NCBI GenBank assembly: GCA_028684935.1
Contig: JAQUEX010000009.1
Coordinates: 1-35,499, forward strand
Source: Kiritimatiellia bacterium
GTDB taxonomy: Bacteria; Verrucomicrobiota; Kiritimatiellia; RFP12; UBA1067
Direction: 5' to 3'
DNA: 35,499 bases
In this document: positions 11,293-26,838 of the stretch, one piece after another
How the letters are laid out: each line of letters starts with the position of its first letter
Position numbering within the stretch: the first letter of the stretch is position 1
The notes under the pieces: model-generated
What the model saw: the letters and a program-made list of their open reading frames with translations, nothing else
Told to the model about the DNA's origin: nothing
Database searches by the model: none
Program-made: the position numbers and the translations under genes

Positions 11293-12570
11293 ATGAGAGG
11301 ATGCTGGCAAACGTTTGGGGGCATGGTTGCGGTGGGCGTGACGCTGGGGTGTGCGTCGACGCGGCGCGATGCGCCGGCGGTTGAGACTCCGCCGGCGGAT
11401 GCTGATGTGGCGGCGTATGATGATCTCGCGGTGCTGACTGAAGCGCTGTTGCTGGTGCAGCGACATTATGTGGAAGAGGTCCCGCTGCAGGAGATCGTTT
11501 ATGGCGCGATCGATGGTATGTTGCTCGGGCTGGATCCCAATTCCTCATTCCTGCCGCCGAAGCCGCTGGCCGTTCTGGAGGAGGAGACGCGCGGCTCGTT
11601 CGGGGGCATCGGCGTCAGTGTCGGCTTGGAGGAGGACGGCGTCAAAGTGATCGCGCCGCTTGAAGACTCGCCGGCGTTCAAAGCCGGCATCCACGCGGGC
11701 GATACAATCAAGGCGGTCGATGGCAAAAAGATGTCCGGCGTCTCGATGGATGACGCCGTCAAGGCCATGCGCGGCGAAAAGGGCTCTGAGGTCAAGGTGA
11801 CGGTCGAGCGTGCGAATGGTGAAACGGTCGATGTGGCTCTGGTGCGCGATGACATCAAACTGGCCAGCGTCAAAGGCGTGCGTGAATTGGGCGACGGCAT
11901 TGGCTATCTGCGCATCACGCAGTTCAGCGAGCATGCGGGAGAGGATTTCGCTCAGGCGATGGCCCGGCTGGAAAAAGCCAAGGTCAAGGAGCTTATCCTC
12001 GATCTGCGCGATAATCCGGGCGGGCTGCTGGAGTCGGCTGTGGCCGTGACCGAGCAGGTCTTGGAGCGCGGCGCGGAAATCGTCAGCGTGCGCGGGCGCG
12101 ACGGCGAGCAGAAGCAGCAGCGCTTTGAAGCGGGGCCGTGCAAGAACCGGTTCGCTCAGATTCCGCTCGCGGTGCTGGTGAATGGCAGCAGCGCGAGCGC
12201 GGCTGAAATCGTGGCCGGCGCACTCAAAGCGCACAAGCGGGCCGTGTTGGTTGGCGAAACGACCTATGGCAAGGCATCGGTGCAGAATGTGATCAAATTG
12301 GCGCTACGCCCTGAGTGCGCGGTGCGGTTGACGACGGGCTATTATTTCACGCCGGACGGCGCGATGATCCACGGCAAAGGCATCGTGCCGGATGTGGAGG
12401 TGCCGGTGTCGAAAAGCGCTTGGCGGCAGACGCAAATGAGGCGCTTGTTTGAAGAGATGCCGGGCGCAGTGAGCAGCGGCATGACGAACATGGTTAACGA
12501 CGTCCGCGACATGCAGTTGGAGCGCGCCCAAGAGCTGCTGAAGGGCGCGCGCATTCTGAACAACGGGTGA
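11293..12570 (+). CDS. S41 family C-terminal processing peptidase (CtpA-type, PDZ domain)
   Basis: A 425-residue periplasmic serine protease. An N-terminal signal ends V-T-L-G-C at residue 20, possibly a lipoprotein site although Thr at -3 is unusual. An N-terminal helical part follows, then a PDZ domain (about 90-175, with the GIGVSVGLEEDG and AGIHAGDTIKAVDG stretches). The S41 catalytic core has Ser302 in GSSASAAE, Lys327 in YGKASVQ and Gln331; the Ser-Lys spacing of 25 matches characterised Ctp proteases. They cleave protein tails in the periplasm, often controlling cell-wall hydrolases. GGGGAAGGGA at 11277-11286 supports the start. tsaD follows after 20 bp. Confidence 0.94.
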   Translation: MRGCWQTFGGMVAVGVTLGCASTRRDAPAVETPPADADVAAYDDLAVLTEALLLVQRHYVEEVPLQEIVYGAIDGMLLGLDPNSSFLPPKPLAVLEEETRGSFGGIGVSVGLEEDGVKVIAPLEDSPAFKAGIHAGDTIKAVDGKKMSGVSMDDAVKAMRGEKGSEVKVTVERANGETVDVALVRDDIKLASVKGVRELGDGIGYLRITQFSEHAGEDFAQAMARLEKAKVKELILDLRDNPGGLLESAVAVTEQVLERGAEIVSVRGRDGEQKQQRFEAGPCKNRFAQIPLAVLVNGSSASAAEIVAGALKAHKRAVLVGETTYGKASVQNVIKLALRPECAVRLTTGYYFTPDGAMIHGKGIVPDVEVPVSKSAWRQTQMRRLFEEMPGAVSSGMTNMVNDVRDMQLERAQELLKGARILNNG

Positions 12571-12590
12571 GGGGAGGGGGAGGTCGGGCC

Positions 12591-13670
12591 ATGCTTGTTT
12601 TGGGGATTGAGACATCCTGCGATGAGTCCGCTGCCGCCGTGGTCGAGGATGGCCGGCGTGTGCGTTCCAGCGTGATCTTCAGCCAGGTCCCCCTGCATCA
12701 GCCCTATGGCGGCGTGGTGCCGGAGATCGCGTCACGGAGTCATGTCGAGAAGATCGGCGGGGTGATCGGCGAGGCCATGCGCGAGGCGTTTGCGTCCGGC
12801 GCCGGCGGCGGTCCGGTTTTGCCTGAATGGTGGCGGCAGATCGATGCGGTCGCCGTGACCTATGGCCCCGGTCTCGCCAGTTCGCTGATCGTCGGGCTCT
12901 CGGCCGCTAAAGGGCTGGCGCTGCGGCTGGGCAAACCGCTGGTTGGAATCAATCACATCGAGGCGCATCTGCACTCGGTTTTTCTGGCCCCGTCGGCGCC
13001 AGAGCCGTTGGAGACCGGGCCGTTGCTGGGGCTGGTGGTCTCGGGCGGGCACACCTGCTGGATCGATTCCGACCGGCCGGGCCGCTACCGCATTATCGGC
13101 CAGACGCTCGACGATGCGGCGGGCGAGGCGTTTGACAAGGCCGCGAAGCTGCTGGGGTTGGGCTATCCCGGCGGACCGGCGATTGACCGGGTCGCGCGCC
13201 AGGCCGCGCGGCGCGATGCCGTGGCGTTTCCCAAAGGCAGCCCGAGGCCGGGCAATCCGGCGCTCGGCGACATGCGCGCCGAGCTGTGCGTGAGCTTCAG
13301 CGGACTCAAGACCGCCCTGATGTACCGGCTGCGCGAGCACCCGCCGCGTGATGAGGCCGAGGTGGCGGAAATTGCGGCCGCGTATCAGGAAGCGATTGTG
13401 GAGGCTCTGGCTGAACGCTGCGCACGCGCCTTGCGCGGTTCCCGCTACCGTGCTCTGGCGGTTGGCGGCGGTGTCTCGCTCAATCGCCGCCTGCGCGAAC
13501 GGCTGCACGAGGTGACGGCGGATGCCGGCGTGACGCTGCTGATGGCGGAACCCCGTTTCTGCGGCGACAATGCCGCGATGATCGCCGGCTTGGCCGGCAT
13601 GGGCGTCGGGGTCACCGGCGAAGAGGCGATGCGCTTGGATGTGGCTCCCGCGCTGGAGGCCGGCGAATGA
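12591..13670 (+). CDS. tsaD: tRNA N6-adenosine threonylcarbamoyltransferase
   Basis: It transfers the threonylcarbamoyl group to A37 of ANN-decoding tRNAs, working with TsaB and TsaE in the cytoplasm. It is 359 residues long, against a usual length of about 340. The ASKHA-type N-terminus VLGIETSCDES is clear. The metal-binding HIEAH motif has His122 and His126. GLVVSGGHT and the C-terminal metal region FCGDNAAMIA are also conserved. ATG 12591 is chosen over upstream codons because GGGGGAGG precedes it and the family begins at this point. Partners tsaB and tsaE are not in the window. Confidence 0.97.
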   Translation: MLVLGIETSCDESAAAVVEDGRRVRSSVIFSQVPLHQPYGGVVPEIASRSHVEKIGGVIGEAMREAFASGAGGGPVLPEWWRQIDAVAVTYGPGLASSLIVGLSAAKGLALRLGKPLVGINHIEAHLHSVFLAPSAPEPLETGPLLGLVVSGGHTCWIDSDRPGRYRIIGQTLDDAAGEAFDKAAKLLGLGYPGGPAIDRVARQAARRDAVAFPKGSPRPGNPALGDMRAELCVSFSGLKTALMYRLREHPPRDEAEVAEIAAAYQEAIVEALAERCARALRGSRYRALAVGGGVSLNRRLRERLHEVTADAGVTLLMAEPRFCGDNAAMIAGLAGMGVGVTGEEAMRLDVAPALEAGE

Positions 13671-13911: not shown

Positions 13912-14763
13912 TCACTTCGTCTTGCGCGAGGGCTTGGGCCCGCCGATCGGAACGAAGGGTTTTGTCGCGCCCGGCTTGCTGCCCGTCCATGACTTGCCGT
14001 CGAATCCCTTGGTGGCCGCGCCGGCCGAGATCTTGACCTCGTCGGCCAGACCGATCTCCACGATCTTGACATCATCGACGTAGAGATAACCGGTGTTGCA
14101 CTTATCCACACCGGTGGCGTCAAGTGCAAGGATCTTGAGCATCAGCCACTCGCAATTTTCCAAATGGCTCTGCTGCAGCTCTGTGCGTCCGAACGTCGGG
14201 ATGACGCTTTCAACCCGCTTCCACTGTTTCGGCACATGGGAAAACTCGCCGGTGTCGGCGTTGTTAAAGTAGATAACTTGGAATCGCACGGCTTCGCGCA
14301 GGTCGGCGAAAGAGGGATTGTTGCTTTTGACCGCGCGCGGGTGCCACCGGTAGCCGATCGGATAGATGCGGCACTTGGGCCCCGGCCCGCCTGTCGTGCC
14401 GATCGATCGTGCCGAGAGCGAAATCATGTATTTCTTCTTGGGGTCGAAGCGGATGGGGGCCGTGTAAACCTGCACGCCTTGGTTGATGCACACCGTGTGG
14501 ACCGTGGCGTCCAGGCGCAGCACATGCGGCCGCATGGACGCTTTGTCTTCCACCACCGACACGTAGGTGTGGTTTTTCAGGTAGTGCTTGTTGTGGTCGA
14601 AGACGTAGAGCCAATGGTTGAGCGGATCAGCCGGGTCATCGAAATGCCCGTTTTTGAAGAGGTTCAATTCTGCAGGCTTGCTCTGCTGCGCGTGCGCGGC
14701 GTGTGCCGCGCAGAGGCCGAAGATCAATGCTGCTGTCCAAGAGAGTGTCTTTGTGGCGTGCAT
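13912..14763 (-). CDS. Secreted carbohydrate-binding-like (galactose-binding fold) protein
   Basis: A 283-residue exported protein. A signal peptide covers about residues 1-25 (ending A-H-A-Q). The mature part starts with the E-L-N-L-F-K-N-G-H-F-D-D pattern typical of CBM4/9-like or DUF642-like galactose-binding sandwiches (N-x-G-F/H-F-E/D near the start). Strands such as KYMISLSARS and a late YLYVDDVKIVEIG fit the same fold. The C-terminus is a Gly/Lys/Pro-rich tail. AAGGAGA upstream of the ATG supports the start. It is the last gene of the VWA/DUF4159 operon, 21 bp after the VWA/GATase gene. The ligand is unknown; the link to the operon may be only transcriptional. Confidence 0.7.
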   Translation of the reverse strand: MHATKTLSWTAALIFGLCAAHAAHAQQSKPAELNLFKNGHFDDPADPLNHWLYVFDHNKHYLKNHTYVSVVEDKASMRPHVLRLDATVHTVCINQGVQVYTAPIRFDPKKKYMISLSARSIGTTGGPGPKCRIYPIGYRWHPRAVKSNNPSFADLREAVRFQVIYFNNADTGEFSHVPKQWKRVESVIPTFGRTELQQSHLENCEWLMLKILALDATGVDKCNTGYLYVDDVKIVEIGLADEVKISAGAATKGFDGKSWTGSKPGATKPFVPIGGPKPSRKTK

Positions 14764-14784
14764 GGCGTCTCCTTGCGTTTTCGC

Positions 14785-17016
14785 TTACGACATGTTTTTC
14801 AACTTGCGTGTGACCCATTCTATCGCCAATAGTGCGATCAGGCAAGCCAGCACGAAAGGGGTTTGCCAGAGCGAACGGTACTCGAGCTTGCGTTCACGCC
14901 GCTCGTTGACGCGCAGGTCCTGAAGGGTGGCGTCGATCTCTTCCGGCGTGCCGTAGCGCCCGCCGCTCGAACGGGCCAGCGCCTTTAATACGTTGTCATT
15001 GATGGGCTTCAGCACCATTTCTTGCGAGGTCGCACGCACCGTGAAAAGGCACGGGGTCGACACAATTTTTTTGCCATCGATCTCGACCGTCGCCATGGCG
15101 CGGTAATTGCCGGGTTCGTTCGGCACGAACTCGGCGACATAGCCGGGGAGCTCTGCACCGCCCGAGGCCTGGATCGAACGGCCGGCCATGGCGAGCGGAA
15201 TGACGCGGTCGGAGGGCGTTGTGATCTCACACGACACCTTCCAGTTCTTGCGGGTCTCGTTGGGCGGGATGACCAGACGGCTTTGCAGGATCGCGGGGTC
15301 ACCCACGGCAATGGTGCCGGCGTCGGTGAAAAGTTCGAGATGATAGTTGTCGAGGTCGCTTTCAGAAGGCGACATCCACTGCACGATCTGGCGCCAGAAT
15401 TTCGGGTAAGGCTTGTCTTCGCCGGGCTGCATGACCCAGCGCCAGAGCGAGTCGGTCAGCACGGCCAGCACCTTGCCTTGGCCATAGATGCGTGAGACCA
15501 GGAGCGGGTGGGTGCCGCTGTCGGTCTGGGCCTCGGCCAGTGCGAAGGCGCCGCCGGAAAGGGTGACGCCGGTAAATACGGAAAGAACAGGCGGCAAGGC
15601 GGACGGCATGTCGGGGTTGTTGGCCAGTGCCGGATGGGCGCGTCCCTCTGCGGTCCACGCGACGTTGAATTTGCCCTCCAGCGCCGGTGAGCCGGCGCGT
15701 GTGAACGGCAGCAGCTTGGCGAGCTCGGTTTGGGCGATGCCGGACGCGCCCCACAGCTTCTGCCCGCCGAGGAGGATCAGGCTGCCGCCTTTTTCGACAA
15801 AGCCTAGAATCGTGCGGCAGTGTTCAGCCGAGAGCGCTTCGGCATCGAAGTCGCCGAGAACGATAATTTTGTTGAGGCTGATCTGCTCCGGTGTGAGGTC
15901 GAAGACGAGCCCTTGGCGATCGCCGTACGCGATCCACTCTTTGGTGCCGGGGGCGGTGCGGCTGGGCATTTGGAAGAAGGCCAGAGGCGTGATATCCTTG
16001 TTGGCGAACAGGGAACGGGCGAAGTGTTTGCTTTCGAAACGAGGCACGTCCTCGAGGAACAGCACGCGGTTTTTGGCATCCAGAACATCCACGGCAACAA
16101 CCATTTCGTTGTCATTGGTCTGCACCTCGCCGGGCAGGACCGGAATGCGTACGGTGTAGGTTTCGGTGCCCACTTCGGGATGGGAGAGCTTGAATTGCAC
16201 GTCGCGGCTGCCGCCTTCGGGCGGAAGCTGGACCGCAACCTTGTCGATCTCTTTCCCGGTTTTGAGCAATTGAACCTGAAAGGGCTCGCCTTTGCCGCCC
16301 TGACCGGCGACCGTGACCGACATCGCCGTATCCCAGCCGACGATCGCGCGGCGCGGCGTGTCGACCATGTCCACGCGCATGTCGGGCTTGTCGTCGGGCA
16401 GGCCGGGTTTTTCAAGTTCTGCGACGTAGAGGGGTGCCGGCCACGTCAGTTCGGCCCACGTGTCTTTCTTCTCACGCGTGTCGATCGCGTCTGTCAACAC
16501 CAGAACGCCCGCCAACTCCTGGCCGCGCAAGCGCTCAAAAAGCCGGTTGAGACTCAGGTTGAGGTGCGAAGACTTTCCCTCAGGTTTGAGTGTGCCGAGC
16601 TGGTCGAGGCCGACCGGCGAGTCGAGGTCAGCGTGGAAAGGATAGACCTCAAGCAAGCAAGAGGCCCGCAGCTTTTTGATCCAGTCAGCCTCGTTCAGCA
16701 GCGCCATGGCCGATTCCCAGCGGGTGCGCTGGGCAGTTACATCGGCGCTTTGACTCATAGAGCCGGAAACATCCAGCAGAACAATGAACCGTGGCTTGAT
16801 GACTTCTGTGAGCGCGCTTTTCTTGCCGGGCAGCAGCAGCACCCAGAAAAAGGCCAGCAGAAACAGCAGGCGCAAGCCGACCAAGGTGAAGCCGGTCGAC
16901 GAGCGTGGCAGATAACGCCACGCGGCATAAGCCACGACGGCAAGCGAAGCCACGAGCGCCAAGAGGATCATGGCGCCCGAGATGCTGTTTTCAAAAATCC
17001 ATTCTGCGGTAGGCAT
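14785..17016 (-). CDS. VWA-domain membrane protein with glutamine-amidotransferase-like domain
   Basis: A 743-residue membrane protein. Two N-terminal membrane helices (about 14-33 and 44-62) precede a VWA domain with MIDAS motif D82-V-S84-G-S86 and a VLVLTDAIDT strand. Beta-rich domains and a class-I-GATase-like region follow (about 300-520, including the LILLGGQKLWGASG stretch). A further beta sandwich comes next, then one C-terminal helix (about 720-735, ending I-E-W-V-T-R). Such proteins occur next to BatA and DUF58 in PVC bacteria. They may form a metal-dependent envelope complex with MoxR ATPases, but the function is not established. No strong Shine-Dalgarno is seen. It lies 33 bp after the BatA gene. 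Confidence 0.85.
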   Translation of the reverse strand: MPTAEWIFENSISGAMILLALVASLAVVAYAAWRYLPRSSTGFTLVGLRLLFLLAFFWVLLLPGKKSALTEVIKPRFIVLLDVSGSMSQSADVTAQRTRWESAMALLNEADWIKKLRASCLLEVYPFHADLDSPVGLDQLGTLKPEGKSSHLNLSLNRLFERLRGQELAGVLVLTDAIDTREKKDTWAELTWPAPLYVAELEKPGLPDDKPDMRVDMVDTPRRAIVGWDTAMSVTVAGQGGKGEPFQVQLLKTGKEIDKVAVQLPPEGGSRDVQFKLSHPEVGTETYTVRIPVLPGEVQTNDNEMVVAVDVLDAKNRVLFLEDVPRFESKHFARSLFANKDITPLAFFQMPSRTAPGTKEWIAYGDRQGLVFDLTPEQISLNKIIVLGDFDAEALSAEHCRTILGFVEKGGSLILLGGQKLWGASGIAQTELAKLLPFTRAGSPALEGKFNVAWTAEGRAHPALANNPDMPSALPPVLSVFTGVTLSGGAFALAEAQTDSGTHPLLVSRIYGQGKVLAVLTDSLWRWVMQPGEDKPYPKFWRQIVQWMSPSESDLDNYHLELFTDAGTIAVGDPAILQSRLVIPPNETRKNWKVSCEITTPSDRVIPLAMAGRSIQASGGAELPGYVAEFVPNEPGNYRAMATVEIDGKKIVSTPCLFTVRATSQEMVLKPINDNVLKALARSSGGRYGTPEEIDATLQDLRVNERRERKLEYRSLWQTPFVLACLIALLAIEWVTRKLKNMS

Positions 17017-17049
17017 ATCAAAAGTCTGGCGTGTCAGCGGGGTGAGTCA

Positions 17050-19212
17050 TCAGGAGGTTACGACTTTACCGGCGAGGTCGACCTTCATCTTTTCCGTTGC
17101 GCCGGTTTGAGCGCGCAACGCTCGGTTTGCGATCCACCACTCGAGCAGGGCGAACAGCAGCGCGAGCCAGAGGAAGATTTCGGCAAGGGAGCGTCCGTTG
17201 CGGTGTTCGTCAATCAGGCGCAGCAGTTCTTCGGGGTCGCTGGCGGTCAGCCATTTTTTGAAACCGGTCCATTCGGCCAGTTCATCCGATCCGGCAGGGG
17301 TCAGACGCGATTCGAAACGATCGGTGTTGACGGCCAGCACAGGTTCCGGTTCGGCCGCACCGGCCTTGGCGCGCGTGTAGATTCCGGGCTCGGGCAGGGT
17401 GTCGATGAAGAAGGTCCGGTTGCCGTTGTCCTTGATCGCTAAAGGCAAGCCGGACGGCATGCTGATCGCGTCGTCGTCGCGGTAATTGGGGACCGCCTCG
17501 TTGACCGGCAGATGCGCGCCCAGAGTGAGGTGCGGCGGCTGGACGGACGCGCCCGCGCCTTGGCGGATGAGCTGGTGCACGACCGGCAGGAAAAAAGCGG
17601 TGAGCGGGAAGGTGCTCCAGTCGCGGTTCGCGCCGACGGTAAAGAGGAAGACCCGGCCGCGGCCGACGGCACGGCCGGCCATGAAGGGCTGGTCGTCGCC
17701 GGCAGTGACCAGCACGGCCGAGCCCTCTTGGAGTTCGCCCAGCGTCATCACCCGTTTGAGGGCCACGGTTGGCACCGTGCCGGGCGGCAGGGGGAGGCTG
17801 AAGGTGACCACTTGCCCCTCTTGATTCGGAATACGCTTCAGCGGGCGCGCGGCCAGCTCGACGGGGATGTCGACGGTGCTGGCCGGGAAAGCCGGCAAGA
17901 TCTTCAATTCGGTATAGGCGCCGGCTTCCGCGCGATAGCCGGGAAACACCACGACCACGCCGCCGTTCTTTGCGTACTCCTCGACACGCAGGACGGTTTG
18001 TCCATCCAGCGGAAAGGCGTCGCAGAGGAACAGCGCCTGATAATCGCGGAGGTCGATTTGCGCGATCTCGGCCGCTTCCGCCTGCTTGACGCTCTCGTCT
18101 GCGGCGCCGGGGGCCAGCGCGGCCTTGAGGTAGCGCGTGGCGTCTTGGGGGCCGGCGATCAACACGGGGAGCTGCTTGCGCACGCGGATCAGGAATTGAA
18201 AGGTGTCGTCCTCCGGCAGCGCGTCTTGCGGCGTGGTCACGGTGGCGACATGGGTGCCCGGCTCAAGTCCGCTGAGCACAAAATCGACCGTGGCCTCGGT
18301 GTCGGCGTCTGTCGAGATGCTGCGGCGGCCGCGCTCCTGTCCGGCAATGTCCACAGCGACCGTGACGTGCTTGGCTGCGCCGGTACGGCCGACACGGACA
18401 TTCAGGCGCGCGGTCTGGCCGGCCAGCATCAGGGCGGGCGAGACCTTGACATCGGTGGGGCAGGCGTTGTCAGGCTGCAGCGCGCCTGCCAGCAGCGCGA
18501 AGAAGGAGACCTTGTCGCGCTGTTCGCGCGTGATGCGGGCCCGGTCGTCGCCGCGTGCGGCTGCCTCCGGGGGCGCGTCACGAAAACCTTGCCAGGCCAA
18601 AGCCTGGCCGTCGGTGAGGATGTAAACCTCGCGTTCGCGTCGTCCGTCCTGCTGTTCGAGCGTGTGCAGGGCCAAGGCGACGGCCTCGTCCAGTTTGCTG
18701 GAGCCATGCTGGCAGGCCAGGGCCTGAATCGCCTGCACGACGGTCGCATGCTCGGTAGTCGGTTTCTCGATGACCGGGATCGGCGTGTCGGCCGCCACGT
18801 AGACGCACACGCGGTCGCCGGCGAAGAGCCCGTTGACAATACTGACGGCGGCATCTTTGCAGATGGCAAAGATCTTGCCGCGGTCCAATTCATAATTCAT
18901 GCTGTAAGAGGCGTCGATCACGATCGCCACATCGCGGCGCGTCCGGCTCAGCCAGGAACCGCCAGTCGTGGAGCGCAGTACCGGCAAGGCGAACGCAAAG
19001 CCGATCATCAGCAACAACAGGGTGCGCAGCAGCCACAGCAGGAAATTCTCGAAGCGCACTCGGCTGGACGAGCGTTTCTGCGCGGCCTTGAGGAAGCGCA
19101 GGGTCGGGAACGGCGTGACGACAGTGCGGCGGCGCTGGAACATGTGCAGCATCAGCGGGATCGCGGCGGCCGTCAAGGCCCACAAAAAAGCTGGATTGGC
19201 GAAAACGAGCAT
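17050..19212 (-). CDS. BatA/VWA domain membrane protein (aerotolerance-operon type)
   Basis: A 720-residue protein. The N-terminal BatA region (PF07584-like; M-L-V-F-A-N-P-x-F-L-W and P-L-M-L-H) is followed by a second helix (about 57-79). The VWA domain has MIDAS D100-A-S102-Y-S104 and a VYILTDGQALAW strand. A long beta-rich and GATase-like C-terminal half (LFLCDAFPLDGQTVLRVEEY) leads to a membrane helix near 685-700 that ends L-E-W-W. The layout parallels the next gene, so the two are probably ancient paralogues. It lies 35 bp after DUF58 with no clear Shine-Dalgarno. Known Bat proteins pair with MoxR ATPases and are tied to stress or envelope maturation; here that is inferred. Confidence 0.87.
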   Translation of the reverse strand: MLVFANPAFLWALTAAAIPLMLHMFQRRRTVVTPFPTLRFLKAAQKRSSSRVRFENFLLWLLRTLLLLMIGFAFALPVLRSTTGGSWLSRTRRDVAIVIDASYSMNYELDRGKIFAICKDAAVSIVNGLFAGDRVCVYVAADTPIPVIEKPTTEHATVVQAIQALACQHGSSKLDEAVALALHTLEQQDGRREREVYILTDGQALAWQGFRDAPPEAAARGDDRARITREQRDKVSFFALLAGALQPDNACPTDVKVSPALMLAGQTARLNVRVGRTGAAKHVTVAVDIAGQERGRRSISTDADTEATVDFVLSGLEPGTHVATVTTPQDALPEDDTFQFLIRVRKQLPVLIAGPQDATRYLKAALAPGAADESVKQAEAAEIAQIDLRDYQALFLCDAFPLDGQTVLRVEEYAKNGGVVVVFPGYRAEAGAYTELKILPAFPASTVDIPVELAARPLKRIPNQEGQVVTFSLPLPPGTVPTVALKRVMTLGELQEGSAVLVTAGDDQPFMAGRAVGRGRVFLFTVGANRDWSTFPLTAFFLPVVHQLIRQGAGASVQPPHLTLGAHLPVNEAVPNYRDDDAISMPSGLPLAIKDNGNRTFFIDTLPEPGIYTRAKAGAAEPEPVLAVNTDRFESRLTPAGSDELAEWTGFKKWLTASDPEELLRLIDEHRNGRSLAEIFLWLALLFALLEWWIANRALRAQTGATEKMKVDLAGKVVTS

Positions 19213-19247
19213 GGTGTGTAAAAAAAGAAATTAAACGTCACAGGAGG

Positions 19248-20153
19248 TCAGCGCGAGAGGCGCTTGCGTTCCTCCAGATAGGCACGGACAAAGGTGTCGA
19301 CCGGTTCATCGGTTTTTACGAGGCGGTAATCCACTTTCATTTCAGAGCAGGCTTTGCGGTAGTCCTCGATAAACTGGCCCATTAAGTCTTTGTACTCTTT
19401 GGCCATGGCGCGCGGATCGGCGATCATGCGTTCGCCGGTTTCCAGGTCTTCGAATTCGGCACCGCGCTTGAGATCGAGATTCAACTCGACCGGGTCAAGC
19501 GTGTGGAAAACGATGACGTCGTGAAGGTTTTTACGGAAGTGCGCGACCGCCTTGATGATCTCGGGTTGGTCGTCAAGCAGGTCAGAAATGATGATCACCA
19601 TGGCGCGGCGGTTGATCGATTCGGCGATCTGGTGCATGACATCCGCACCTGCCGTGCCTTGCGCCGGCTTGTAGCCTTGCAGGATTTTCAGCGCGTTGTT
19701 GAGCTCGTTGAACGAGTTTTTACAGGGCAGCGCGGCATCCATTTTCTCGCCGTAGATGTACATGCCGACCGCGTCGCGGGATTTGAGGACCACGTAACCG
19801 AGCGCGGCCGCAAGGGTGCAGGCGTAATTGAATTTGGTCGGATGCTCGGCGGAGGTGTACCCCATGGAGCCGCTGCGGTCCACGAGCAGGTAGACGCGCA
19901 GATTCGTCTCGTCCTGATACCGACGGATATAATACTTGTCGGTGCGCCCCAAGACTTTCCAGTCGATCCGCTTGAGGTCGTCGCCCGGCATGTAGGAGCG
20001 ATGGTCAGCGAATTCGGTACTGGCGCCTTTCTGGGCGCTGCGGTGGCGTCCGGCGAGCGTACCTTCCACGACGTACCGCGAGTTGAGGGCGAGGCGATTA
20101 AGCTTCGACATCTGGGCGGGCGTGAGGTAGGCGGAGATTCCTTCTTTGCTCAT
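19248..20153 (-). CDS. DUF58 domain-containing protein (VWA-like)
   Basis: A 301-residue soluble protein. The DUF58 signature is present at residues 51-82: HRSYMPGDDLKRIDWKV followed by Y-Y-I-R-R-Y-Q-D-E. A VWA MIDAS motif D92-R-S94-G-S96-M follows, then the III-S-D-L-L-D-D strand. The start at 20153 is preferred because AGGAG precedes it and it overlaps the upstream stop by one base (TGATG); a start at 20186 would add 11 residues inside the previous gene. DUF58 proteins are core partners of MoxR ATPases. Here it lies between the small exported protein and BatA/VWA on the same strand. Confidence 0.92.
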   Translation of the reverse strand: MSKEGISAYLTPAQMSKLNRLALNSRYVVEGTLAGRHRSAQKGASTEFADHRSYMPGDDLKRIDWKVLGRTDKYYIRRYQDETNLRVYLLVDRSGSMGYTSAEHPTKFNYACTLAAALGYVVLKSRDAVGMYIYGEKMDAALPCKNSFNELNNALKILQGYKPAQGTAGADVMHQIAESINRRAMVIIISDLLDDQPEIIKAVAHFRKNLHDVIVFHTLDPVELNLDLKRGAEFEDLETGERMIADPRAMAKEYKDLMGQFIEDYRKACSEMKVDYRLVKTDEPVDTFVRAYLEERKRLSR

Positions 20154-21013
20154 CAGCGGCTCCTTGCAGGGGTCGCGACCACCCAATAGTCACACTCGCT
20201 GTCAATCATCAGCGCGAACCGTCCGTCGGAATCAAGCTTCAGGAAGCGGAGGCCGTTGAGCAGGCCGTTCTCGGTCGCGACGCCACGCTGCGTGCCGGCC
20301 TCGGTGACCGTTTCAAACTCCACACTGATTGGGGTCGCGGTCTTGCGGCCGAGGATCGTGGCGCTTTTTGGGCTGCCGTACCGATCAAGCGGCCATGCCG
20401 TAAGCTTTGTCAGCTTGTTGCCCATACTCTTGCTGAAGAGTGAGTAGCGCTGGTTGGCCAAGCCGGAGAGGCGGCTGAAGGGCGCGATCTTGTACACCCA
20501 CGGGTCGCCGAACCGGTCGTTTTTGGGTGGCGCTTTGCCGGCAGGAAGGTTGAACAGCGGGGCAAGGCTGGAAGGATATTCGACGTTATCGGCGTAATAG
20601 GTTTTGAGCGTAACCTCGACCTTGGCGTGGTCGATGCGAGTCAGCCAGCGGCGGGCCATGGTGTCAGCAAAACGCGTGATCGGGCGGGCCGCCTTGTCGC
20701 CGGTCACCGCGCTTTCGAAGATTCGGACCGCATCGGCCTGCCTGCCGCCGGCCAGCAGGTGCCAGGCGGCCAGCGTTTTGACCGCCGGCAGAAACTCGCC
20801 CAGCGTCGAGCTCTTGTCCATGACACTCTGGCAGGCCTCGATGACCGCCCTGTGGTCATTCGGGGTGCGGGCATGCGCACCCCACGCCTTGAGAAAGGCC
20901 TCTTCCTGCTGCGTTGCCGCCCGCGCGCAGAAGGCCACAAAAACCGCGGCGCCGAAGAGAGCCGCGGTCCGCTGCAGGGTGTATGACATGTCGAATGAAG
21001 GCATGGACGACAT
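20153..21013 (-). CDS. Exported hypothetical protein with pseudopilin-like C-terminal module
   Basis: A 286-residue protein. The chosen ATG at 21013 overlaps the stop of the DUF4159 gene (TAATG), so coupled translation is likely; internal starts at 21004 and 20989 are possible. A hydrophobic segment about 8-25 residues after the last of these starts looks like a signal peptide ending A-R-A-A. The middle is helical, with a TPR-like feel. From about residue 158, the order Y-P-S-S-L-A-P-L-F, then D-R-F-G-D-P-W-V-Y-K and R-Y-S-L-F-S resembles the C-terminal domain of type II secretion pseudopilin GspG, but no prepilin leader is present. I do not recognise the whole family. Its role within the VWA operon is unknown. 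Confidence 0.65.
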   Translation of the reverse strand: MSSMPSFDMSYTLQRTAALFGAAVFVAFCARAATQQEEAFLKAWGAHARTPNDHRAVIEACQSVMDKSSTLGEFLPAVKTLAAWHLLAGGRQADAVRIFESAVTGDKAARPITRFADTMARRWLTRIDHAKVEVTLKTYYADNVEYPSSLAPLFNLPAGKAPPKNDRFGDPWVYKIAPFSRLSGLANQRYSLFSKSMGNKLTKLTAWPLDRYGSPKSATILGRKTATPISVEFETVTEAGTQRGVATENGLLNGLRFLKLDSDGRFALMIDSECDYWVVATPARSR

Positions 21014-22551
21014 TAGCGCGTGCTGGAGTACATCAGGATGTTCACGCCAAGCTTGAGCGCGTCGTCCTCGAGGTAACTGTTGCAATACTTGTTGGGCGAG
21101 AGTTCCCAGGCCCCAGCCATGCCGATCGGGCTGTAGATGACGGCCGGGTTGCCGTCGATTTCGACCGTCAGCACCTGCGGCGCGATCGCCGGGGCGTTGT
21201 TGTAACTCTTGGCCAGCGCCGGCGTGACTTTCATGCTGGAGATGTCGTTCGGCATCCGGAAGAGCGGGTGGCCGCTGCGCAGTGCGCTGAAGGACGTGCC
21301 GGGAAGCACGCGAGCCAGATTCTCGCGGAACGAGACATCGAACGCCTTGCGCCCGCAGCAGGCCTCTGCAATCAGCAGGCCGCCATGGGTCAGATAGTTG
21401 CGCAGCGCCGTGATCTCATCCGGCTTCAACGTGAACGATTCATGACCCGTCAGGTAGAGTACCGGGGCGTCGAACAGCTTGGGGTCCGTCAAACGGAGTT
21501 CCTTCGTCGAAAATTTAACCGGAACGCCGGTTTTGACGTTGTATTGCGAAAGCAGCACCGAAAGGCCCACGTGACGGGTTTTCCATTCGCCGTCGTAGAT
21601 GACCTGGGCAATGTTCATCGAGCCGGCCACCGACACCTGCTTGGCATCCTCAAAACGGGTTTTCTTCATGTTCTCCAGCGTCCAGTTACGCATCGCGCTG
21701 GCGTAGCTCAGGATATTCATGCCGAGCTGCTGAGCGGACTCCGGCTCATAGGCGATGATCGCGTCGTCCTCGAGCGGGTCCCATCCCACTTCCATGCCGA
21801 AGCGAGAGACAATCGCGACCGTGCGGCAGTCGATCGTGACGCCGTCAAGCCACGGCTCGTTGCCGTTAAACAGCGAGCGGACCCCGGGGCGGTAGTTCAC
21901 GCGGTCGAGGCTGTAGTAGGCGTGAAAAATCGGATGGTCCGGACTGAGCCGCCTAACCGGCGCTTCAGGAAACACCTCATTGAGCACCTTGATCGCAGAG
22001 TCGTAGAAGGGCTTCGAACCCATGCCGGCATTTAAAATGATCGTCCCGCCGCGCAGCAGATACTCGCGCAGTTTCTTCTTTTCCTCATCGTTCAGGCTCC
22101 AGTGGTAGTGCCCCGAGCGGTAGAGGATCGGGTTCTGGTCGGGGTCCGCGTCGATCTCCGCAAATGACTTGGCCTCGAAGTCGTAATCAACCTCCGCCAT
22201 GCCTTTGAGCGCCTTTAACAGGTTGTTTAAGTCGTTCGGACGGGCGTTCCAATCCTGCTCGCCGTATTGAGAGGTTAACTTGGTGAACATCGTCGGAGGC
22301 TTGGGCGGATTCTTTTTTTCGGACCGCGAGGCTGGCGTGGCCGGCGGCGGTGGATAGGGGATAAACGTTTCGCCGCCTGCCATGTTGGCGGGGGGCGGCG
22401 GGATCTCCTTGCGGGGCGGCGGCGGAATAAAGCCGGCCTCATCGGAGCCGTCGCCATCGAAAATATGGGCGCCGCACACCGTCAGCGCCGTCATCACGGC
22501 AAGAAACGAGGCGAACGTCAACGGAACATAGCCTGATACGACTGACTTCAT
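21013..22551 (-). CDS. Exported protein with two DUF4159 domains
   Basis: A 512-residue protein, first gene of the VWA operon. Residues 1-28 form a signal or anchor helix, and 42-86 a Pro-rich linker with repeated PPPP. Two DUF4159 units follow. The first runs about 90-285 and has LYRSGHYHWSL, LREYLLRGGTIIL and a closing LGMNILSYA. The second runs about 310-512 and has LYLTGHESFTL, LRNYLTHGGLLIA and a closing LGVNILMYSS. Each has the G-H, R-x-Y-L-x-x-G-G and H-P-I/L-F landmarks, so it is a tandem duplication within one chain. The start is backed by AGGAG just upstream. DUF4159 proteins accompany MoxR/DUF58/BatA genes in many PVC genomes; the fold is GATase-like and the activity unknown. Confidence 0.88.
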   Translation of the reverse strand: MKSVVSGYVPLTFASFLAVMTALTVCGAHIFDGDGSDEAGFIPPPPRKEIPPPPANMAGGETFIPYPPPPATPASRSEKKNPPKPPTMFTKLTSQYGEQDWNARPNDLNNLLKALKGMAEVDYDFEAKSFAEIDADPDQNPILYRSGHYHWSLNDEEKKKLREYLLRGGTIILNAGMGSKPFYDSAIKVLNEVFPEAPVRRLSPDHPIFHAYYSLDRVNYRPGVRSLFNGNEPWLDGVTIDCRTVAIVSRFGMEVGWDPLEDDAIIAYEPESAQQLGMNILSYASAMRNWTLENMKKTRFEDAKQVSVAGSMNIAQVIYDGEWKTRHVGLSVLLSQYNVKTGVPVKFSTKELRLTDPKLFDAPVLYLTGHESFTLKPDEITALRNYLTHGGLLIAEACCGRKAFDVSFRENLARVLPGTSFSALRSGHPLFRMPNDISSMKVTPALAKSYNNAPAIAPQVLTVEIDGNPAVIYSPIGMAGAWELSPNKYCNSYLEDDALKLGVNILMYSSTR

Positions 22552-22589: not shown

Positions 22590-22624
22590 CGATAATTATC
22601 GTACGTGCGGCGTATGTAAGTCAA
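22590..22624 (-). promoter_or_regulatory. Promoter of the VWA/DUF4159 operon with a palindrome at the -10
   Basis: Read on the minus strand, TTGACT (22624-22619), an 18-bp spacer and GATAAT (22600-22595) make a good sigma-70 promoter, about 44 bp before the start at 22551. The -10 is embedded in a perfect 12-bp palindrome CGATAATTATCG (22590-22601), which may be a repressor operator. Confidence 0.6.
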
Positions 22625-22684: not shown

Positions 22685-22740
22685 GGAACGGGTTTGGCGG
22701 ATAGGTCCGTTTCGTGAGGACTGCATGACGGGAGGTGCGT

Positions 22741-25700
22741 ATGACGCGTGGATTCTCGTGGGCGGTGTGTCTTTACACAAGCTTGGCGATTTCGGCGGCG
22801 GGTCGCGATGTACAAGAATGGGCCGGAGGACTCGAAGGGGACCCTGGGAGCCCTCACATCATTACGCCGCCGCAGGACGCGGCGATCACCAACCAAGAGT
22901 GCGTGTCGCTCAGCGTGGTCGTGTCGGGTGACACACCGTTTGGCTACCAGTGGTTTCTGGGAGAGTCGGGCGACAGTTCGGCGCCCGTCGCAGGGGCCAC
23001 CAACCGGACCTTCACGACGCCGCCGTTGAGCGCGGATGCCCAGTATTGGGTCCGTGTTGAAAATGTCAACGGCGTGGCGTATAGCCGTGCCGCCTCTATC
23101 CGGCAAGCGTTTGCCGTGTGGACATTGGCCGATCTTCAAAAAATCGGCAGCGGTGTCGACGGGTGGAGCCTGAATGCGGCGTATGCACTGATGGCGGACA
23201 TCGATGCGTCGGCGTCAGCGTCGTGGAATGATGCCGACACCGACGAGAGCCTCCTCGAGGGTTTCGCGCCTATCGGCAAGCCCTTCCGCGAATGGTATGA
23301 TGACGTCACTCAGACGTGGCTCTGGGAGGATGCGGTTCCTTTCGAAGGTCTTTTAGACGGTCGCGGCCACCTGATCTGCGGACTCACCCTCAACCGGCCG
23401 CATCAGGAGGGTGTCGCGCTGTTCGGGTGCCTCGGCACGGCGGCGAGCGTGCTGGATGTGGCACTGGTGAACGGTGTGGTGATCGGCAATCGTTATGTGG
23501 GCACGATCGCGGGATGGAATGACGGACGCGTATCGGGCTGCCTCGCGGCGCCCCGCGTCTTGCAGGGCGATGATGCCGGCGGTGTCGTCGGCTCGCATTT
23601 CGGCAGCTTGACCCGGTCCTGTGCGTTGGGACGCGTGTCGGGGGACGCCGCGGGCGGTCTGGTAGGGGCCAGCGGCGGAGAGGTGGCTTACTGTTATGCC
23701 GCGGCACGGTGCGAAGAGGATGCCGGCGGACTGGCGGGGGCTTTTTTCGATGGTTGCGTGACCAATTCATATTGGGATACGGACGCTTCCGGCCAGTCGC
23801 AGTCTGCCGGCGGCGAGGCACGAAGTGCGGAAGCCATGCGGCACGCGGACACGTTTGTCGGCTGGGATTTTGAAGAGACGTGGGATATTCAAGAGGGGGA
23901 TGGCGCGCCGTTTCTCAGACGTATCGCAACCGGGAGGACCTCGCACATGACGGCTCCGGACGGGCTCTCGCCCGACGGGATGCCGCCCGTCGTGCGCGTG
24001 CGGCCGGCGCTCACGGCCGAAGTGGCGAGCGCCGCCTGCGGCCTCGTCAACGCCCGTTGGCAGGTCGCCTCGTCCGGCTCGTTCGATACCCCCTCGGATT
24101 GGTTCGAACTCGCCTGCAGCACGAATCAGGACCTTCTCGTTGCCAGTGCGAAGGTGCCGGTCAGCGGTGCGCTGCGATACGGTTCGAACTATGTGTGGCG
24201 TGTCCGGACGCAATCGGCCTACGGCGTATGGAGCGCATGGTCGGCGACCGCCGAGTTTTCTGTTGAAAAGCCTGTCGATCCGCTGGCCAGCGGCAGAGAT
24301 ACGTTGGGGGTGTGGCTCGCCGGATTGGAGGCCGGCCTGTGGCCCTCGTTTTACTTGGCAAACGCTGAGGCCGATTTCGCGCAGGCCGTCGCGGCGGACG
24401 GCGCCGATCTCGAGGCGCGTATCGGTCATGCGCTGTCGCGGCTGATGACGCTCGCCGAAAACGAACCGCTCCGCGCGTTGCTCGGGGACTTCGGTTTCAC
24501 GTTTGATGAATCAGCGCACAGTGTGACGGGTGCTTTTTCAGGGACGGTCGCGCCGCCCTCCAATGACGCGGTGGACCGACTGGCTGCGAGTGTGCTGCCG
24601 GAACTTGAAACCGCACTGGCGGACCTGGCTGAGGTGCCGCTGGATTGGAGCGATTGCGTGACGGTCGCGCCGGATGATTTCCCGGTCGACGAGCCGGTCG
24701 CGGTGGACGCCGGCGACGTGCTTGGGGCACGGGCCGCGATCTCCGGCATACGCGCACTCTTGCTGACGGCCAAGGCGTATGACATGACCGCCGATTATTC
24801 GCGCACGAATGTGACGGTGGCATCGCCCGCTGTTCCGCTTTTATCGGTGACGCCGGATGGTGACGAGACGGAATGGGCGGGGGTGCAGCCGCGTCTGTTC
24901 GGTGACCGCAGCTTAATCGAATATGTGAAAACGGCCCGTTCTGAGGATGCCTTCTACACCCTGCTGCGGTTGCGCGAAGGTGAGATCTCTGACTTCATGT
25001 CGTGCGAGGTCGAGACGGCGGCCGGGACCGTGTGGTGCGGGTTTGACGGGTATGCGCCCGGGGCGACCGTATCCGACTGGAACGGCTGGGCGACGTTGTG
25101 TTGCTCCGGAGCGGGGGACGTGCTTGAGATTGTATGCCCGTTGCCGCCGGGGGCGGACGGCCAGCCGTGTGTGCTTGACGAGGCGTTCGTCCAATTCTCG
25201 CTGCCGCCGGTGCTGGCCCCATACGCCATGGTGACGGTTGACGGTTTTCCCGACGAGTGGGCGGGCATGCCGGTGGCGCTGGCGAACTGGGATGACGGCA
25301 GGCTTTCTTTTGTCAAAATCTCCGGCGACGGCGACAACGTTCAGGTGTTGGTGGTCCTGAAGGACGGCTATTCATTTTCCGGCATGCAGGATCTCTACGC
25401 CAGTGTGATGGTTGCCCCGGGCTGGGGGTTTTCAGTGTCGGCGGACACGCCCGGTTTCAGTCTGCAAGCGAACGAAAATGTGCTGGAATTTTCCGCGCCT
25501 GTGCCGATCGAGTACCAAGGGCAGGACTTCTATTTGAACGGGGTCGAGTTTACATTGCCGGACGGGGAGTCGGGGGTTGTGCTCGAGGGCGTGTTCTTCC
25601 AGTCGGCGGACTGGGATGACGTTGTGGAGGAAGAGCCGCTTCAGCCGCTCGCGTCCTTTATGCAAGACCATCCCGCCGCGTTGAATGCCGTGCGCGATCC

Positions 25701-26838
25701 CGCATCGCTGGCGATGGCGCGTGAAGCGGTGCGCCTGTCCTTGGAATGGGCGCTTGCGGCCGACGCCGCGATAACCGGGCGCACGGACACGGCGATGCAC
25801 TTCATCGAGTATGACCCGGCAGAAACCAATGAGCAGGCCGAGGTGCGGCAGCGCCTTGCCGAGGCGCGTGCGTCCCTCGACGCGCCGCAAAGCATCACGG
25901 TGGACGGCCACACGCGCACCGTGTTGGCGGGGGCGTTCTTTGCCATGCCCTATCTGACGCGCGCGCATGTGCCGTCGTTGACGGACGATGATGAGATCGT
26001 GCTGGGGTCGTTTGCGGACCCGACGATGGCGGGCATCTTGCCTGACATGAACCAGGCGACATGGCAGGACGATCTTTTGGGAGAATGGCCGGTGGTGCAG
26101 ACCAACGCGTTCGCGATGGACGGTTACGGCTTCACGGCCGGCGGCTATGCGCTGTGGCAGCTTGCCGCAGAGGTGGGTGAGCATGAGGAGGTCGCGGTGA
26201 GCGGTCTGCTGACCGATTCGACCGTGGCCTGGGTGGAGACCGCCTTCACGGGCCCCGGCACGCTGACGTTTTCTTGGGCAGTCTCTTCTCGCGCCCGCTG
26301 GAACCTTCTGAGCGTGTATGTGGATGGGGTTCGCCAGACCGGTTCTCTGTGGGGTGAAGAGGCGTGGGGGCCACGCTCGCTCTCACTGCCGGCCGGTGCG
26401 CACACCGTACGCTGGGCCTACGTCAAAAATGACAATGCCACGATGTTTATGGACGGCGGCGCTTTGGATATGCTCGAGTGGGTGTCTTCGCAGACGGCCA
26501 CAACGACCACGCCGGTTGCGGTGCCGTATGCTTGGCTCGACGGTTTCGAAGGTCTCGTCAGCGGGAACGATTATGAGTCCGCGGCGAGTGGGGATCCGGA
26601 CCAAGACGGACGCCTGACGTGGCAGGAGTATGTGGCGGGGAGCAACCCCATAGACGGCTCGTCCGTTTTCTTGGCGACGATTGATGAGGAGAACGGACAG
26701 TTGACGGTCGGCTGGACGCCTGATCTCGGTCCCGCGCGTGTCTACACCGTCGAAGGACGGTCCGCGCTGAATGATTCGGGGTGGGCACCGACCAATGGCG
26801 CCAGCCGCTTTTTCCGCGTCAAGGTGCAGCTTCCTTGA
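22741..26838 (+). CDS. Giant modular secreted protein (Ig-like, GLUG-type, CBM9-like and C-terminal DxDxDG segment)
   Basis: A 1365-residue exported protein with a signal peptide (about 1-20). Modules in order: Ig-like (38-121, with GYQWF and YWVRVENVNG); GLUG-like repeats (126-397, with LDGRGHLICGLTL, AGGVVGS and AGGLVGA); FnIII-like (408-510, YVWRVRTQSAYG-WSAWS); helical (513-686); two CBM9/DOMON-like units (700-810 and 830-955, each opening V-x-x-D-G-x-x-x-E-W-A-G); helical (963-1073); jelly-roll-like (1149-1250, GPGTLTFSWAVSS, DGVRQTG, AGAHTVRWAY); and a Ca-binding-like DPDQDG segment (1285-1290) before WQEYVAGSNP and an ending RFFRVKVQLP. GGGAGG at 22730-22735 supports ATG 22741; GTG 22735 is less likely. 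It may bind surface polysaccharide. No catalytic domain is recognised. Confidence 0.85.
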   Translation: MTRGFSWAVCLYTSLAISAAGRDVQEWAGGLEGDPGSPHIITPPQDAAITNQECVSLSVVVSGDTPFGYQWFLGESGDSSAPVAGATNRTFTTPPLSADAQYWVRVENVNGVAYSRAASIRQAFAVWTLADLQKIGSGVDGWSLNAAYALMADIDASASASWNDADTDESLLEGFAPIGKPFREWYDDVTQTWLWEDAVPFEGLLDGRGHLICGLTLNRPHQEGVALFGCLGTAASVLDVALVNGVVIGNRYVGTIAGWNDGRVSGCLAAPRVLQGDDAGGVVGSHFGSLTRSCALGRVSGDAAGGLVGASGGEVAYCYAAARCEEDAGGLAGAFFDGCVTNSYWDTDASGQSQSAGGEARSAEAMRHADTFVGWDFEETWDIQEGDGAPFLRRIATGRTSHMTAPDGLSPDGMPPVVRVRPALTAEVASAACGLVNARWQVASSGSFDTPSDWFELACSTNQDLLVASAKVPVSGALRYGSNYVWRVRTQSAYGVWSAWSATAEFSVEKPVDPLASGRDTLGVWLAGLEAGLWPSFYLANAEADFAQAVAADGADLEARIGHALSRLMTLAENEPLRALLGDFGFTFDESAHSVTGAFSGTVAPPSNDAVDRLAASVLPELETALADLAEVPLDWSDCVTVAPDDFPVDEPVAVDAGDVLGARAAISGIRALLLTAKAYDMTADYSRTNVTVASPAVPLLSVTPDGDETEWAGVQPRLFGDRSLIEYVKTARSEDAFYTLLRLREGEISDFMSCEVETAAGTVWCGFDGYAPGATVSDWNGWATLCCSGAGDVLEIVCPLPPGADGQPCVLDEAFVQFSLPPVLAPYAMVTVDGFPDEWAGMPVALANWDDGRLSFVKISGDGDNVQVLVVLKDGYSFSGMQDLYASVMVAPGWGFSVSADTPGFSLQANENVLEFSAPVPIEYQGQDFYLNGVEFTLPDGESGVVLEGVFFQSADWDDVVEEEPLQPLASFMQDHPAALNAVRDPASLAMAREAVRLSLEWALAADAAITGRTDTAMHFIEYDPAETNEQAEVRQRLAEARASLDAPQSITVDGHTRTVLAGAFFAMPYLTRAHVPSLTDDDEIVLGSFADPTMAGILPDMNQATWQDDLLGEWPVVQTNAFAMDGYGFTAGGYALWQLAAEVGEHEEVAVSGLLTDSTVAWVETAFTGPGTLTFSWAVSSRARWNLLSVYVDGVRQTGSLWGEEAWGPRSLSLPAGAHTVRWAYVKNDNATMFMDGGALDMLEWVSSQTATTTTPVAVPYAWLDGFEGLVSGNDYESAASGDPDQDGRLTWQEYVAGSNPIDGSSVFLATIDEENGQLTVGWTPDLGPARVYTVEGRSALNDSGWAPTNGASRFFRVKVQLP

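Follow-up and report, generated by a model that had tools for sequence, protein, structure and literature searches.

The stretch analysed here (the window) comprises 35,499 nucleotides from a Kiritimatiellia bacterium (assembly GCA_028684935.1, contig JAQUEX010000009.1). It corresponds to bases 1-35499 of a 37,838-base contig in a fragmented assembly (430 contigs, 84% complete). Our subject is a unit of six minus-strand open reading frames (ORFs), running from 22551 down to 13912 and numbered gene 1 to gene 6 in the order of transcription (Table 1). A DxSxS motif is readable in three of the products, i.e. the DUF58, BatA/VWA and VWA/GATase proteins, and a fourth product is a DUF4159 protein. 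The stop codon of gene 1 and the ATG of gene 2 have one base in common (TAATG at 21013), as do the stop codon of gene 2 and the ATG of the DUF58 gene (TGATG at 20153), and the remaining intergenic gaps are 35, 33 and 21 bp. An earlier note, made from the sequence alone, had described this arrangement as an operon without the MoxR ATPase usually encoded with such genes. Both the architecture and the absence of MoxR from the window were borne out: no MoxR gene was found on the contig with the PF07726 profile, and a tblastn search with the FHA domain-containing MoxR described below (FHA-MoxR) gave no match at E 1. Moreover, plus-strand ORFs flank the unit on both sides (12567-13670 and 22735-26838), making a transcript shared with an outside moxR gene unlikely.

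Profile searches recovered DUF4159 in gene 1 (two stretches, 207.7 bits over the whole protein), DUF58 in gene 3 (149 bits), and both BatA (54.6 bits) and VWA_2 (48.2 bits) in gene 4. The match of gene 5 to GATase1_like is slightly below the cut-off (26.7 bits against 27, E 5e-6), and its VWA domain is weak in Pfam (VWA_2, 15.8 bits, cut-off 27). Gene 6 matched no known domain in Pfam or NCBIfam profile searches, so the earlier description of its product as carbohydrate-binding-like finds no backing in any profile. Its N-terminus resembles a signal peptide by eye. The hydropathy scan used for Table 1 is crude: it misses this start and that of the 775-aa protein introduced below, and it over-calls, flagging three segments in FHA-MoxR, which is expected to be soluble. 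In relatives, a simple pattern search found DxSxS in 42/43 DUF58, 26/33 BatA and 25/26 VWA/GATase ORFs, counted over the ORFs of the fetched loci, where overlapping loci from one genome count twice. Relatives of the DUF4159 protein on 16 named contigs came from metagenome-assembled genomes labelled Kiritimatiellae, Kiritimatiellaeota, Verrucomicrobia or Lentisphaerae.

Table 1. Features of the six-gene unit (positions within the window).
Feature	Position	Strand	Description	Basis
Gene 1	21013..22551	-	Tandem DUF4159 protein, 512 aa; N-terminal hydrophobic segment	Pfam (two stretches), hydropathy
Gene 2	20153..21013	-	Exported-looking protein, 286 aa, ATG at 21013; N-terminal hydrophobic segment, TPR, GspG-like and C-terminal GspC-HR/PilP-like parts	
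Gene 3	19248..20153	-	DUF58 protein with VWA and metal ion-dependent adhesion site (MIDAS), 301 aa from ATG at 20153	Pfam, junction, hydropathy (no hydrophobic segment), DUF58 tree
Gene 4	17050..19212	-	BatA-like VWA membrane protein, 720 aa; three hydrophobic segments	Pfam BatA and VWA_2, TIGR02226
Gene 5	14785..17016	-	VWA and GATase1-like membrane protein, 743 aa; three hydrophobic segments	Pfam, hydropathy
Gene 6	13912..14763	-	283 aa; last gene before the putative operon break	Same place in relatives
Promoter-like site	22595..22624	-	Upstream of gene 1	10/12 consensus positions

The earlier note had proposed looking for moxR elsewhere in the genome, and a profile search with PF07726 identified five strong MoxR genes (C, G and L numbers are our labels for contigs, genomes and loci). 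DUF58 lies beside MoxR on C125 and C64, C304 has a weak DUF58-like match, and the MoxR gene of C227 runs into the contig end. A further one is on C296, where no DUF58 match was found. There it is preceded by genes for a 1191-aa protein with three hydrophobic segments in the crude scan (D1191), a 775-aa protein with weak TPR matches, and a 298-aa exported-looking protein, in that order. Profile searches with D1191 and the 298-aa protein gave no family. The C296 MoxR has an N-terminal FHA domain (AAA_3 203.8 bits, FHA 64.4 bits).

Relatives were then compared using the gene-2 family as a marker of the front genes. Within the order, 27 of 161 genomes carry this family, or 26 after a weak match (G133, E 0.001) was dropped from all counts; G133 is placed among the 25 same-family genomes without the marker that are used below. 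It was also found in 32 of 387 genomes drawn from the phylum. In total, 50 genomes carry the marker (the 26 and 24 more), 49 of which belong to the window's class. The window-type DUF58 gene directly follows gene 2 in 39 of the 50 by eye (38 by script, which missed G007, where the DUF58 frame was called too long). No MoxR gene lies between the window-type DUF4159 and DUF58 genes in any of the 26 genomes with both on one fetched stretch. The genes make up a single unit found repeatedly across the class.

In eight genomes (G015, G028, G408, G290, G490, G274, G353 and G260, the first two from the window's family) the order DUF58, BatA, VWA/GATase, gene 6, D1191, TPR protein, exported protein, FHA-MoxR is found on a single strand, with several 4-bp overlaps and no gap above 242 bp. 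In one of these, G408, gene 2 is ahead of DUF4159, with a small exported gene and DUF4159 separating it from DUF58; no DUF4159 gene was seen in front within the stretches of G028 and G353, that of G028 meeting the contig end. The same order occurs in G469 with no TPR gene detected, and in G034 with gaps of up to 1271 bp, gene 6 undetected and no gene 2 in cis. In G355, 9 kb separate the parts, and in G275 the TPR, exported and MoxR genes are divergent from the front genes. A VWA-like protein and further ORFs adjoin FHA-MoxR in G275 (L197 17262-19899), a possible energising module; judged by eye and not by profile, these ORFs look like ExbD, ExbD and ExbB. In several relatives, DUF4159 is separated from gene 2 or DUF58 by a gene for a small exported-looking protein (218-228 aa; e.g. 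L131 10615-11301, L197 10250-10906), which the window lacks at that place.

The C296 FHA-MoxR shares 84% identity with the FHA-MoxRs encoded in cis in G015 and G028 and nests with them in a tree. Because the order in relatives continues beyond gene 6 into the back half, and C296 carries that half with an 84%-identical FHA-MoxR, the operon appears to have been split after gene six. Gene order and sequence identity thus suggest an ancestral operon of about ten genes, of which these six form the front half, the back half with its cognate MoxR now being on C296 (probability roughly 0.8). The ancestral front order would have been DUF4159, in some genomes the small exported gene, the TPR/GspG/HR-like gene, DUF58, BatA/VWA, VWA/GATase and gene 6, and the back order D1191, TPR protein, exported protein and FHA-MoxR. 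It is very probable that the cognate MoxR is supplied in trans from this split operon. No moxR gene lies just outside the window on the same transcript in this genome, while one ends the same operon in relatives. Of the features by which MoxR systems are recognised, a Walker-motif ATPase is provided by the C296 FHA-MoxR, and MIDAS-bearing VWA partners are present; MoxR and the VWA genes share one operon in eight relatives, and in variant form in G469 and G034, but are on separate contigs here.

The operon is also interrupted in other genomes. A break after gene 6 is found in the window and in G001, from the same genus. In G172 and G426 the break is after BatA and the back parts begin with VWA/GATase (the G172 MoxR being cut by the contig end), and in G021 the operon is in three pieces. 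In an assembly as fragmented and incomplete as the window's, a misjoined contig or a binning error might have separated a back half that truly follows gene 6. However, the contig of G001, which has the same break, extends some 5.8 kb beyond gene 6 and shows no D1191 there (L221), and its back half is internal to another contig (L301), so that an assembly artefact is extremely improbable.

The two halves also co-occur. D1191 was found in the same 32 of the 387 phylum genomes as gene 2, in 31 as a single match of at least 1251 bits and in G265 in three pieces. Within the window's family in this set, D1191 is present in all 6 genomes carrying gene 2, and no match was obtained in the 13 listed that lack gene 2. 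FHA-MoxR scored at least 739 bits in 26 of the 27 genomes tried, i.e. 25 of the 26 front-marker genomes of the order and G002, and in none of the 25 same-family genomes without the marker.

Several observations weigh against a single split operon. Gene 2 is not directly followed by DUF58 in 11 of the 50 marker genomes. The marker is present in G036 (66% complete), where no full-length FHA-MoxR was found; conversely, G002 (56% complete) has FHA-MoxR and no marker, and G009 has a full-length FHA-MoxR at 587 bits, also with no marker. The D1191 and FHA-MoxR models derive largely from front-marker genomes, part of which then entered the counts, and co-occurrence is therefore partly a product of construction and shared ancestry. 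The D1191 score line was set after the scores had been seen, the next class starting at 734 bits, and the best single piece in G265 (644 bits) falls below that class; some D1191-like match at E <= 0.001 is present in 148 of the 387 genomes. A closer inspection of eight genomes of the lower D1191 class revealed seven with only D1191 within the fetched stretches. The eighth, G264, a genome of another class, carries D1191, TPR protein, exported protein and FHA-MoxR (L284 12137-19900) with no front half within the fetched stretch. Together these eight genomes suggest that D1191 and the back half may also function where the front half is absent.

Since the window has no MoxR gene, and the 26 genomes noted above have none separating the window-type DUF4159 and DUF58 genes, the unit could be read as a MoxR-independent machine whose DUF58 and VWA proteins need no AAA+ ATPase. 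We consider this very unlikely, since in relatives the same operon ends with FHA-MoxR, and 25 of the 26 marker genomes of the order retain it although in many of them the operon is interrupted or runs into a contig end. The idea of a system lacking MoxR, as the earlier note implied, accordingly did not survive the comparison, and loss of MoxR was rejected because FHA-MoxR is present in cis in relatives and co-occurs with the front marker.

A different MoxR might serve the DUF58 and VWA proteins, given that the genome has five strong candidates. One of these is that of C125, which belongs to a paralogous MoxR/DUF58/BatA/VWA-GATase system, here called type A. In the window's own family the full type-A operon runs TPR/PKD protein, DUF4159, MoxR, DUF58, BatA, VWA/GATase (L061, L064). 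The two types share the DUF4159, DUF58, BatA and VWA/GATase families in the same order. However, type A has a MoxR without an FHA domain between DUF4159 and DUF58 in all four loci showing both (G015, G028, G022, G034), has no TPR/GspG/HR-like gene, and has DUF4159 proteins only 31-33% identical to that of the window. Gene 2 therefore occupies the slot that MoxR has in type A. The trees contain several long branches, and so only close groupings were used; in them the window-type and type-A DUF58 proteins, and their respective MoxRs, form separate groups. The trees and the gene order of relatives led us to reject the type-A MoxR as first-choice partner. Moreover, C125 and C64 already have a DUF58 of their own and C304 has its weak DUF58-like match, and among MoxRs in the mapped window-type loci only FHA-MoxR continues the same operon. 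Service by another MoxR is thus improbable, and the FHA-MoxR of the split operon remains the preferred partner.

Type A also looks split in the window's genome. MoxR, DUF58, BatA and VWA/GATase are on C125 (L047 6584-11488) with an opposite-strand ORF upstream, and the type-A DUF4159 and its TPR/PKD-type partner are on C263 (L045 323-3945), near the contig end. In the window-type system, both the DUF58 and the FHA-MoxR of G034, from the window's family, group with those of G408, from another family (L131 and L202; L179 and L203), which suggests replacement or transfer of the whole system at once.

Gene 2 had been called pseudopilin-like. On its predicted structure, the term fits the middle part and not the rest of the protein. 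The model was built from a 26-member alignment, covers 278 aa from a later Met, and has a mean predicted local distance difference test score (pLDDT) of 85.4. Residues 24-121 match TPR proteins by model comparison, with TPR-like helices (27-94) between the N-terminal segment and the GspG-like part. The latter (model residues 108-201) matches the major pseudopilin 3gn9_C with Z 5.3 and a root-mean-square deviation (rmsd) of 3.2 over 85 of 111 residues, in row 46 of 50; scores of this size are also obtained with unrelated folds. With the Pfam T2SSG profile, 8 of 26 family members matched weakly at E <= 1 (best 1.8e-4, the window's own 0.18). A search of PDB sequences with the family returned no pseudopilin, only a weak TPR match (E 0.0092) and a chance match. 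By eye no prepilin-type motif was seen in gene 2. Since the GspG-like part follows a TPR-like part and not an N-terminal pilin helix, gene 2 is not of pilin architecture.

The C-terminal 78 residues of gene 2 folded alone into six strands (pLDDT 89.9). The best six VIA rows for this domain had modest scores, Z 6.9-5.7 with rmsd 2.4-4.8, all under Z 8, against Z 3.7 for the row after them; they comprised GspC-HR, three PilP structures, one chain from the type IVa pilus machine and one Dot/Icm chain. Foldseek placed 3oss_C 20th (E 0.42, probability 0.66), behind proteasomal-ATPase and other chains, and gave no match at E <= 0.001 for either the domain or the whole of gene 2. No T2SSC or PilP match was found for the domain in Pfam or in PDB sequences, the latter giving nothing useful. 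GspC-HR is described as six strands in two sheets, PilP-like, and as binding the secretin N0 domain (PMC3169554).

Promoter and terminator scans were consensus matches only; the promoter scan found five sites across the region, including that in Table 1, compared with a mean of 1.8 after shuffling. The flanking ORF at 22735-26838 is divergent, encodes 1367 aa with weak Ig-like matches only, and looks like a large surface protein.

A working scheme can be outlined from these parts. A hexamer of FHA-MoxR would act in the cytosol on the DUF58/VWA partner, much as NorQ does on NorD, and ATP-driven movement would pass via the BatA, VWA/GATase and D1191 proteins to the exported DUF4159 and TPR/GspG/HR-like proteins, the outcome being assembly or remodelling of an envelope complex. 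The FHA domain of MoxR may read a phosphothreonine mark. The Walker and FHA residues are invariant in the 13 FHA-MoxRs compared, the FHA residues being G27, R28, S42, H45 and N64. As the genome also contains seven protein kinase domain matches, phospho-regulation via the FHA domain is plausible.

An envelope role, as already proposed in the earlier note, is reasonable since two products have three hydrophobic segments and two more have an N-terminal one; we would give a role in envelope assembly or remodelling an even chance. The earlier contrast with a soluble chaperone, however, is a false choice, as the system combines an ATPase with an envelope part. The genome contains six secretin-family matches on five contigs and GspF-type genes, which would permit a coupling to such a machine rather than demonstrate it. 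That the target is a secretin-based machine is possible but, in our view, doubtful. Slightly more doubtful still is the full picture, a new kind of envelope machine in which a phospho-regulated FHA-MoxR, via inner-membrane VWA relays, would drive a periplasmic adaptor to assemble, gate or recycle a secretin-based apparatus in Kiritimatiellae. It is an equally speculative part of that picture that the adaptor joins pseudopilin-like and secretin-binding-like domains in a single chain and that the apparatus is type II or type IV pilus-like.

These data turn the apparent absence of an ATPase from a VWA operon into a concrete assignment of partners between two unlinked loci. They also draw attention to a system with an exported-looking protein resembling parts of secretin machines, which offers a periplasmic candidate target for MoxR-VWA systems with membrane VWA proteins. 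The window-type system is a variant of the MoxR-VWA kind of which we found no earlier description in the PMC literature searched; nor did that literature yield a paper on DUF4159. In the bifidobacterial PFNA cluster, kinase, MoxR, DUF58 and, in some species, FHA are encoded by separate genes, and nothing like the window unit is described in the portion of the article available (PMC8430577).

The Bat (Bacteroides aerotolerance) operon of the MRP subfamily likewise encodes MoxR, DUF58, VWA and TPR proteins together (PMC11834572), and gene 4 has the BatA-type anchor of Bat systems. However, the window-type system has its MoxR last, with an FHA domain, and in this genome apparently split off, and it adds DUF4159, the TPR/GspG/HR-like protein, the VWA/GATase protein and D1191. 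NorQ-NorD and RavA-ViaA similarly combine a MoxR ATPase with a VWA partner acting on a membrane complex; for NorQ-NorD, the VWA partner is positioned inside the MoxR ring, and the target requires the MIDAS of this partner (PMC9976466 and PMC13036017). Those two systems are described as two-protein pairs, whereas the window unit has several membrane and exported-looking proteins. Finally, one part of gene 2 may resemble GspG, and another the HR domain of GspC, both of the type II secretion system, or PilP of the type IV pilus. In contrast to those machines, gene 2 has both parts in one polypeptide, behind a TPR part.

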